DNA of 64,000 bases, from NCBI RefSeq assembly GCF_000799465.1, contig NZ_JUGU01000001.1, forward strand, positions 992,001-1,056,000, written 5' to 3'. Under the pieces are notes generated by a model. That model made no database searches. It had not been told where the DNA came from and saw nothing but the letters and a program-made list of their open reading frames with translations. Of the stretch, positions 31,177-34,944 are shown in pieces (the stretch's first letter is position 1; every line of letters begins with the position of its first letter). Source of the stretch: Psychroserpens sp. Hel_I_66. GTDB lineage: Bacteria > Bacteroidota > Bacteroidia > Flavobacteriales > Flavobacteriaceae. A program made the position numbers and the translations under genes.

Positions 31177-34100
31177 ATGGATTATTTATTTGAAAACCTA
31201 GGGGATGAAAGGTTCCAAGAAATTTGTCATGCATTAATTAACAGTGAATTTCCTAATTCGCAAGCTTTTCCAGTTGGACAACCAGATGGAGGGAGAGACT
31301 CTATAGTATATTTAACAGAGAATGTCAATAAAGAGTTTATCGTATTTCAAATAAAATACGTAAAAAACCCAAATAAAGATGAGCCTCATAAATGGTTAAC
31401 TAAAATTCTAAAAAAAGAATCAAAGAAAATTGAAGAATTGATACCTAAAGGTGCAAAAAAATTCTACTTAATGACAAATGCAAGAGGAACTGCACACCTA
31501 GATGCTGGATCAATTGATAAAGTAAATAAAATTTTAGAAGAAAATATAAGTATTCCATCAATTTGTTGGTGGAGAGATGATATTTCAAGAAAATTAGAAT
31601 CTAAAAATGATATAAAATGGTCTTATTCAGAGATATTAAATGGCCAAGATGTTTTAAATAATTTAGTTTTTGAAAATATCAATGAAAATAGAGACAGAAG
31701 AGAAAGCGTTATAAAAGCCTATTTAAAAGATCAGTATGATATCGATAATGAAGTGAAATTTAAACAAATTGAGTTACAAAACAAGCTGTTAGACCTATTT
31801 ACTGATGTTCCGATTAACATTAAAAAAATAAATGAGAAAAATAAGATTCTAAAAAATATTTTAATTTCTCAAGGTCTTTATCAAAGATACAAAAGTGAAA
31901 ACCGAACTGATTATGAAGACGGAAGTTCAGATGAAATTGGTGCAGCTAGTTTTATTTTAAATTCAAATATTCAAAAGGGAATTAAAAGAGTATTAATTGA
32001 AGGAGGACCTGGTCAAGGTAAGTCAACCATTTCGCAATATGTTTGTCAAATACATAGGATTAAACTATTGAATAAAAAACATGAATTAACTCTTATTCCC
32101 AAGAATATATCAGAATCACCCGTAAGATTACCTTTTAAAATTGATTTAAGAGATATTGCATTATGGGTGGAGAGAAAAAACCCTTATAATAATATTATTA
32201 GTGATGAAAAATTCGCTAGTTTATGGCAAAATACACTTGAATCTTTTCTAATTGCGCATATATCATATCATTCAGGTTTAGATGATTTTAACACTCTTGA
32301 TTTAATTTCGGTTTTAAAATTAAGTTCTGTTCTTTTTATTTTTGATGGATTTGATGAAGTGGCAAATTTAAAATCAAGAGAGGCTATAATTATTTTTATA
32401 AATAAAGGAATAAGTAGATTATCAGAAAACACAAGCTCAATACAAGTTGTAATAACTAGCAGACCAGCTGCTTTCTCTAGCATAGTTGGTTTTTCTATTG
32501 ATCTTTACCCACATTTTGAATTAACAGACATAACACCAAGTGTAATAAATGAATATGTTGAAAAATGGATAAAGTCAAGAAAGCTAGATAATAGAAAAGC
32601 TTCAGAAATTAGGAATTTAGTAAATGAAAAATTGAAAGTTCCACACTTGAAAGATTTAGCCAAAAGTCCTATGCAATTAGCTATTTTAATTAGCTTACTC
32701 AATACTAGAGGCGAATCATTGCCAAATAAAAGAACTGCATTATATGACAGTTATATTGAGTTGTTTTTTAATAGAGAATCTGAAAAAAGTTTTTTAATAA
32801 GAGATAATAGAGATTTAATTATTGATATACATGAATATTTAGCTTGGGTTTTACACTCTGAGGCTGAATTATATAGAAATAGTGGAAGAATTGAAATTCA
32901 AGTGCTACATGAAAAATTGAATCATTATTTAGTTAAAGAGGGTCATAAAAATATTATTGCAGAACAATTATTTAAAGTTATGGAAGAAAGAGTTTGCGCT
33001 TTAGTTTCTAGAGTTCAAGGGACTTTTGAATTTGAAGTGCAACCTCTAAGAGAATACTTCGCTGCAAAATATCTATATAATACATCGCCATATTCTCCGC
33101 CTGGAAAAAACTTTCCTGGAACGAAGCCAGATAGATTTGATGCAATTTCAAAAAATTTATATTGGCAGAATGTATGTAGATTTTTTGCTGGATGTTTTGA
33201 TAAAGGTGAATTACCTATGATAATCGAAAAACTCAATGAAATGCAGGAGGATGAGCATTTAAAATACACGAATTATCCTCGTTTACTTACTTCTCAACTT
33301 TTATCAGATTATGTTTTCACCCAATATCCAAGACTATTAAATCAAGTAGTAAAATTGATTGTTTCTGAAGTACAATTAGGGAAAATTCTTAACCAAAATG
33401 AAAGAGGAAGAAGTGATGATTCAATTTTATTGCCAATAGAATGTGGTAGATTAGAATTAGTTACTGAATGTTTTAATCAATTAAAATTATTACCATCAAA
33501 AGATTATGCAGAAGAATTAATAGGTATAATAAATAATAATCCTCTTAATAAAATAGATTTTTGGAAGAATTCTTTGTCAAATTATTCAAATAAAGATTTA
33601 ACAAAATGGCTAGAATTTGCGTATAAATTAAGAATTATATTTCAGCTCGAAAATGACCTTTTACTCACAATAATTAATGAGTCAGAATCTGAAAAAACAA
33701 AAAGATTACAATATTTGATACATGGGAATAAAGAAGAAGTAATAAATGAAAACATAGAACTTAAAGATGAGGCATTAAGTGCTATTTTAAATAAAGAATT
33801 ATTTTATAGTCCAGGAAGAGAAATGATTAAAAGTTTTGGTGTACTTACTATAATATTTCACAGTCATGTTCTTTCTATGGCATTTAAAGATGTTGAATAT
33901 GATAGGTCGTTCTTAAATATTTTTGATGATTTCCTTATGAGAAGACCTTCAAAAAGAAAAGAAAAAAATGAGTCCATTTTGAAATTTGAATGTGTTGACA
34001 AAATAGATGAGAAAATCTCAAACTTTGTAAAGGATACTAAAAACGTATTAGAAAAACCAGTTTCTACTTGGATAAATTCAATAGAAAATTGGGATATCTT

Positions 34101-34944
34101 CACGGAGAAAGCTAGGAAGCACTTTGGAGATAATTTAACCATTGAAGTTTTAGCAATAATAAGTGCTAATATTAAAACAAAAGATAAAAGGTTTGATGGT
34201 TATGAAAATTTAAATGATAATAAATTATCATTATGTAAAAGGGTATGCTCTGCTAGAATGAAATCAGGGAATTTAAATTATTGGACTAACCAATTTACCA
34301 TTTCAGAAGACTTAAATTTTACTTTATTCGTATTTTTGACTTGGGCAACACCAAGAACGATAATAAAACTATCAGAAATTGTATCAGAGAAAATTAGTGA
34401 ATTAAATTCAACTCAATTTTTAAGATTAGATTTAGGTTTATCTAGAATACTTGAAATTTCAAGTTTTACTTCGACACAAATAAAGTTTTTAGAACAAAAT
34501 TTTAATCATGAGTTTTCTAATGAATTTAAGTATTTATTAATGCATCGCGTTCCATATAATCTTAAAAATAAATTTGTTTATAATAATATTAGGTCAGTAA
34601 CTGGTAAACTCAATTCTATTTTTGATTTAAAACTAGAGTTTTTAATAGACACTTTTCTTAAGAAACCTAGTAATAAAAGTGTTTTGTTAGAAATTAAGAA
34701 AATTTATTCAAAGGCTACTAATTTTAACATGAATGAATATCGTTACAGACGAGCTATAAGTAATGAAAACCATGAAATCCCTGTAATCATAGCAAAAATG
34801 ATAATGGAGGAGGATAATCTTTATCCAAAGTATTTAGTCTCCATAGCAGAAAATGTTTGTTGGAGAGATGCAATTAATAAAAAGAAAAAAGTTGGAAACA
34901 TTGCAATTGAAGAAAAGTGGTTTGATTATAGCGTGACCTCATAA
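31177..34944 (+). CDS. NLR-like NACHT NTPase with N-terminal Mrr-like nuclease (candidate antiphage protein)
   Basis: This 1255-aa protein has three parts. Residues 1 to about 165 form a PD-(D/E)xK restriction-endonuclease-like domain: Glu15 in RFQEICHAL, QPDGGRD with Asp41, and FQIKY with Gln58 and Lys60. Residues about 265-560 form a NACHT STAND NTPase: Walker A GGPGQGKST (276-284, Lys282), Walker B with LFIFDGFDEVAN (Asp390, Asp393, Glu394), a sensor-1-like VVITSRPAAF, and a winged region with LAKSPMQLAILISLL. From about 640 to 1255 the chain is helical with no recognised domain, likely the sensor. Bacterial NACHT proteins with such effectors sense phage and kill or arrest the cell. Codons are more AT-rich than in neighbouring genes, suggesting transfer. 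Confidence 0.88.
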   Translation: MDYLFENLGDERFQEICHALINSEFPNSQAFPVGQPDGGRDSIVYLTENVNKEFIVFQIKYVKNPNKDEPHKWLTKILKKESKKIEELIPKGAKKFYLMTNARGTAHLDAGSIDKVNKILEENISIPSICWWRDDISRKLESKNDIKWSYSEILNGQDVLNNLVFENINENRDRRESVIKAYLKDQYDIDNEVKFKQIELQNKLLDLFTDVPINIKKINEKNKILKNILISQGLYQRYKSENRTDYEDGSSDEIGAASFILNSNIQKGIKRVLIEGGPGQGKSTISQYVCQIHRIKLLNKKHELTLIPKNISESPVRLPFKIDLRDIALWVERKNPYNNIISDEKFASLWQNTLESFLIAHISYHSGLDDFNTLDLISVLKLSSVLFIFDGFDEVANLKSREAIIIFINKGISRLSENTSSIQVVITSRPAAFSSIVGFSIDLYPHFELTDITPSVINEYVEKWIKSRKLDNRKASEIRNLVNEKLKVPHLKDLAKSPMQLAILISLLNTRGESLPNKRTALYDSYIELFFNRESEKSFLIRDNRDLIIDIHEYLAWVLHSEAELYRNSGRIEIQVLHEKLNHYLVKEGHKNIIAEQLFKVMEERVCALVSRVQGTFEFEVQPLREYFAAKYLYNTSPYSPPGKNFPGTKPDRFDAISKNLYWQNVCRFFAGCFDKGELPMIIEKLNEMQEDEHLKYTNYPRLLTSQLLSDYVFTQYPRLLNQVVKLIVSEVQLGKILNQNERGRSDDSILLPIECGRLELVTECFNQLKLLPSKDYAEELIGIINNNPLNKIDFWKNSLSNYSNKDLTKWLEFAYKLRIIFQLENDLLLTIINESESEKTKRLQYLIHGNKEEVINENIELKDEALSAILNKELFYSPGREMIKSFGVLTIIFHSHVLSMAFKDVEYDRSFLNIFDDFLMRRPSKRKEKNESILKFECVDKIDEKISNFVKDTKNVLEKPVSTWINSIENWDIFTEKARKHFGDNLTIEVLAIISANIKTKDKRFDGYENLNDNKLSLCKRVCSARMKSGNLNYWTNQFTISEDLNFTLFVFLTWATPRTIIKLSEIVSEKISELNSTQFLRLDLGLSRILEISSFTSTQIKFLEQNFNHEFSNEFKYLLMHRVPYNLKNKFVYNNIRSVTGKLNSIFDLKLEFLIDTFLKKPSNKSVLLEIKKIYSKATNFNMNEYRYRRAISNENHEIPVIIAKMIMEEDNLYPKYLVSIAENVCWRDAINKKKKVGNIAIEEKWFDYSVTS

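Follow-up and report, generated by a model that had tools for sequence, protein, structure and literature searches.

A probable one-gene NLR-type defence system with an Mrr-like nuclease, a NACHT module and a fast-diverging helical tail in Psychroserpens sp. Hel_I_66

In a stretch of 64,000 nucleotides from Psychroserpens sp. Hel_I_66 (NZ_JUGU01000001.1, positions 992,001 to 1,056,000; hereafter the window), the gene at 31177..34944 on the forward strand encodes P0001, a protein that joins an Mrr-like nuclease domain to a NACHT NTPase and a long helical tail. We consider this gene to be probably a one-gene bacterial defence system of the NLR (nucleotide-binding, leucine-rich repeat) type; its relatives exchange both of their ends, are patchily distributed, and occur on plasmids and in prophages, which fits such a role. 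Bacterial NACHT proteins have been described as tripartite: the C-terminus senses, the NACHT module oligomerises and the N-terminus is the effector (available part of PMC12169576). The same order of effector, NACHT and tail is borne out for P0001 by structure models and family matches, with the tail as the presumed sensor. Its parts are as follows, with the support for each in brackets.

31177..34944, + strand: NLR-like protein gene, P0001, 1255 aa (open reading frame and family matches)
31177..31674, + strand: residues 1-166, Mrr-like PD-(D/E)xK nuclease domain with D41 and Q58-x-K60 (model core, conserved motif, Mrr_cat in relatives)
31675..31956, + strand: residues 167-260, linker, mostly helical in the model and less conserved (model and alignment)
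31957..32586, + strand: residues 261-470, NACHT NTPase core with GGPGQGKST (K282), DGFDE (390-394) and R429 (PF05729, NLR structural match, conservation)
32587..33096, + strand: residues 471-640, helical and winged-helix part of the NACHT module with QPLREYF (622-628) (NLR structural alignment, highest conservation)
33097..33546, + strand: residues 641-790, start of the helical C-terminal solenoid (model; 32% mean pairwise identity)
33547..34941, + strand: residues 791-1255, fast-diverging helical solenoid, putative sensor (17% mean pairwise identity; unrelated sequence in some relatives)

An earlier note, made from the DNA letters, had assigned Asp41, Gln58 and Lys60 to the nuclease and Lys282, Asp390, Asp393 and Glu394 to the NACHT domain. 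All of them stand at those positions and are invariant in 71/71 rows of an alignment of P0001 with 70 relatives. Structure prediction, which the note had proposed as a check, returns both a nuclease core and an NLR-like NTPase fold. The nuclease model follows an alpha-beta-beta-beta-alpha-beta order that carries the D...QxK motif, and Mrr_cat (PF04471) matches 10 of 29 homologous nuclease domains at E <= 0.5, the best at 2.3e-4. P0001 scores 28.0 bits with Pfam NACHT (PF05729), whose cut-off is 26.7. The NACHT half also matches NOD2, NLRC4 and NLRP3 structurally, in an alignment that continues through residues 471-640; the model is weak at residues 604-660. The note had described the C-terminus as having no recognised domain. 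This holds from about residue 640 on, and the tail has no Pfam family above cut-off, but residues 471-640 belong to the NACHT module as its helical and winged-helix part.

At least 632 proteins out of 5.8 billion searched match P0001 at E <= 0.001, as counted among the 7994 candidates that were scored. Among the 120 matches listed, query included, 119 relatives cover 94-100% of P0001 at 50-78% identity; the 70 relatives aligned above were taken from these. A genome scan found 79 loci with relatives (best 80 of 83 kept). From open reading frames (ORFs) of 1050-1500 aa matching P0001, we built a second alignment of 80 rows, namely P0001 and 79 ORFs from 91 loci; one of these, L001, is the window gene again, so that 79 are distinct. 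Gln58, Lys60, Lys282, Asp390, Asp393, Glu394 and Arg429, which include Walker A, Walker B and the conserved arginine after strand 4, are kept in 80/80 rows. Asp41 is kept in 77/80, the others having Glu (two) or a gap (one). Mean pairwise identity over the 80 rows is 40% in the nuclease, 39% in NACHT, 48% in residues 471-640, the highest value, 32% in 641-790 and 17% in 791-1255.

The two ends of the protein are exchangeable among relatives. Blastp places the nuclease, NACHT and 471-640 parts in a single group of 79 each and splits residues 791-1255 into groups of 67, 5, 4, 2 and 1; when hidden Markov models are compared with each other (HMM-HMM), the singleton alone merges with the main group. 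As judged from these sequence groupings, with which distant homology is compatible, the same NACHT engine carries tails that have no detectable kinship. When residues 791-1255 alone served as query, 21 proteins matched, including 18 (with P0001 itself) that have the family's full length. As for the N-terminus, the annotation of four plasmid relatives is HNH endonuclease; in the two of them that were scanned, the actinobacterial L166 (4743-7418) and L167 (4686-8156), an N-terminal Pfam HNH_2 domain, above the cut-off in one and just under it in the other, replaces the Mrr-like domain.

The family is widespread and, near the window genome, sparse. A tree of 79 rows carries 12 phylum labels, including Bacteroidota, Pseudomonadota, Actinomycetota, Cyanobacteriota, Acidobacteriota and Chloroflexota. 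These labels are strongly clustered, with 18 phylum changes (minimum possible 11, shuffled mean 42.7) in a tree made by a quick method that gave long-branch warnings. A few misplaced rows, from Bacillota and Thermodesulfobacteriota near the window protein, suggest transfer without proving it. Among 395 sampled genomes of the phylum, 29 match at E <= 0.001, at full length in the window's own only; the second-best match covers residues 380-679 (E 9.8e-11). The gene is found in 0/22 other genomes of the genus, among 57 relatives one other has a match, over 121 residues (E 1.9e-4), and in the window's genome P0001 is the sole NACHT match at E <= 0.001. Among 72,556 plasmid records, 34 match P0001 at E <= 1e-5. 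Five plasmid regions carry relatives: one adjoins an Abi-family gene, one adjoins a SIR2-family gene with recombinases, and the other three adjoin neither. L086 (9893-13966) is a distant nuclease-NACHT relative inside a prophage; a portal gene and a replication gene stand on either side of it, and the surroundings include head, terminase and integrase genes. L087 and L088 show the same arrangement in prophages that, like that of L086, we take to be P2-like; all three have unrelated C-termini. L091, with a short NACHT match only, has head genes in common with L086.

Among described systems, the closest likeness we note is to bNACHT25 and bNACHT32, clade 6 proteins of E. coli with a PD-(D/E)XK nuclease, NACHT and a helical C-terminal domain, which degrade DNA once activated and require nuclease residue D48 for defence (available part of PMC12169576). 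Compared by description only, they share with P0001 a single chain, an N-terminal PD-(D/E)XK DNase, a central NACHT and a helical C-terminus; the difference is the NCH1 C-terminal domain described for bNACHT25 and bNACHT32, a family that is not listed for P0001. NCH1 is absent from the Pfam matches of P0001 at E <= 1 and from those of 23 relatives at E <= 0.1, its presence in the library being unconfirmed, and PF22722 (NA-iREase1) is absent from P0001. PD-(D/E)XK and NACHT domains also occur among the validated systems of DefensePredictor (available part of PMC13092281). The nuclease of P0001 is, as seen through its relatives, of the same domain type as Mrr-family nucleases (PF04471), from which P0001 differs by the NACHT and large helical tail fused behind. 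Avs (AVAST) proteins, such as Avs4 with its Mrr-like nuclease, likewise place a nuclease, a STAND (signal transduction ATPase with numerous domains) NTPase and a C-terminal repeat sensor on one chain, but the NTPase of P0001 is matched by the NACHT model. PADLOC, whose coverage of Avs is unconfirmed, gave no Avs match for P0001 at E <= 1 or for 23 relatives at E <= 0.1. Animal NLRs such as NOD2, NLRC4 and NLRP3 carry CARD or PYD heads and leucine-rich repeats, whereas P0001 has a nuclease head and a helical, HEAT-like tail. By the features compared, P0001 is a bNACHT-type protein: of the bacterial NACHT or Avs-type layout put forward in the note, the nuclease-NACHT-tail order is supported by structure models, by conservation and by matches to known families, the NTPase being of the NACHT (bNACHT-like) kind.

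By analogy with these proteins, resting P0001 would be inactive. The helical solenoid, from about residue 641 to 1255, would recognise a product of a phage or other mobile element, directly or via a host protein. The NACHT module would then swap nucleotide and oligomerise, and the oligomer would bring the N-terminal Mrr-like nuclease domains together to cut DNA, which would stop the invader and, probably, its host cell as well. bNACHT25 senses phage via the host chaperone DnaJ (available part of PMC12169576), and therefore direct binding of the trigger is not obligatory. The order of the parts, the intact residues, the folds and the exchange of ends are computed results; defence, trigger, oligomerisation, DNA as the target and death of the cell are inferred by analogy.

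Several observations weigh against a defensive role. The window is no defence island: PADLOC at E <= 1 gave no match in the six nearest neighbours of the gene, and 46 other window ORFs yielded 12 PADLOC families in scattered domain matches, for example of helicase and MotB types. Around the relatives, we scanned 150 of 156 listed neighbouring ORFs from 39 of 41 loci (two of L004 and four of L071 were left out, and five ORFs above 900 aa were unlisted). Among the PADLOC families listed (top 25 of 108), IetAS, PtuA, AriA and others are sporadic, their enrichment being uncalibrated; among the Pfam families listed (top 25 of 122), proton-antiporter genes lead with 4/150, amid ordinary genes. No record among the 72,556 plasmids spans 80% of P0001 in one place, and only 2 of 50,697 phage records match it, weakly and in the NACHT part. 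The ten loci on viral contigs comprise one with 40% identity over residues 1-1064, six with 22-24% identity and three that match over short stretches. P0001's own nuclease domain has no Mrr_cat match in Pfam at E <= 0.5. Finally, no experiment on the family was found in the literature searched, the coverage of papers being partial.

If the protein were instead a restriction enzyme akin to Type IV, its Mrr-like domain would cut foreign or modified DNA directly, NACHT would work as a motor or as a switch for assembly, and the tail would bind DNA, with no protein sensed. The Mrr_cat-type nuclease of the homologous domains and the general ability of helical solenoids to bind nucleic acid would both fit such an enzyme, which we regard as unlikely. 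The occurrence of relatives on plasmids and in prophages could also point to a conflict protein whose main targets are plasmids, other mobile elements or competitors of the carrying element rather than phages; this is improbable, as the window gene sits on the chromosome among neighbours of housekeeping type, and bNACHT proteins of similar layout target phages (available part of PMC12169576). Even for a family with no direct evidence of defence, we hold it very improbable that P0001 is a non-defence STAND regulator, a stress-activated nuclease or signalling switch. STAND proteins do include regulators such as MalT, but the nuclease motif is kept in 77-80 of 80 rows, the distribution is patchy and there is no conserved partner gene.

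If the gene is defensive, it represents a compact single-gene NLR occurring in many bacterial phyla. The gain would lie in the sensor and the family rather than in the principle, because bNACHT and Avs proteins have already established how such systems work in general. The sensors better known in the field are of leucine-rich, TPR and WD40 types, and a HEAT-like tail would extend that range. The note had suggested a new sensor type; this is possible only, as the tail of P0001 looks like a generic helical solenoid, and we hold a new sensor to be less likely than not. More tentatively, the solenoid may be an undescribed NLR sensor class within a widespread one-gene family that has a fixed NACHT engine, Mrr-like or HNH fronts, and tails of several unrelated kinds that diverge fast and are each suited to another signal from invaders. 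With its engine conserved and its cutter and sensor exchangeable, such a family would be a good system for studying how bacterial NLRs choose their ligand.

The gene is one ORF with an ATG start and no internal stops, on a genome that is a single contig of 3.84 Mb. A chance ORF is ruled out by its length of 1255 aa, full-length relatives and invariant motifs, and the window copy shows no sign of being a pseudogene. At 27.3% GC it is the lowest of the 38 larger window ORFs listed, the others having a mean of 34.9% (sd 2.9), which agrees with the note's remark that it is AT-richer than its neighbours. It was also described as standing alone, and it does: it begins 480 nt after an FKBP gene and ends 232 nt before the next listed ORF, and related loci have no conserved neighbour. 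In the Pfam scan, the genes nearby are of housekeeping type, among them Omp85, DUF2237 and an OYE-type (old yellow enzyme) gene. When we clustered ORFs of at least 70 aa by blastp across the 91 loci and the window, no neighbour was conserved, the next largest family reaching 6 loci and the window. This absence rules out a housekeeping operon shared by all homologues, which the note had named as evidence that would count against defence.

No empty insertion site was found among 23 same-genus genomes. With the window's own included, DUF2237 is present in 4/23 and strong full-length FKBP matches in 7/23. Around FKBP in the 6 other genomes there is no match to P0001, and the 14 other window proteins searched there give one 26% match; gene order is therefore not conserved and allows no clean before/after comparison. 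In another genome, G003, Omp85 and DUF2237 homologues lie about 2.3 kb apart without the P0001 gene between them. Elsewhere in the window, the 3' end of the FKBP gene has only chance-level matches.

A few further observations concern single loci. The window's own genome has a separate 497-aa open frame with Mrr_cat above cut-off (L178, G000:C1:3458516-3458845). In the relatives L022, L023 and L026, the frame is broken into 2 or 3 ORFs. Two family copies, L044 and L054, lie about 18 kb apart on one Arenicellales chromosome (OY282380.1). In L157 (2600-5030, contig 234 of the same-genus genome G012), the last 24 FKBP codons and the sequence that follows occur a second time some 2.2 kb downstream, with three unrelated ORFs between the copies; the pattern looks like that of a segment insertion or duplication at the FKBP 3' end.
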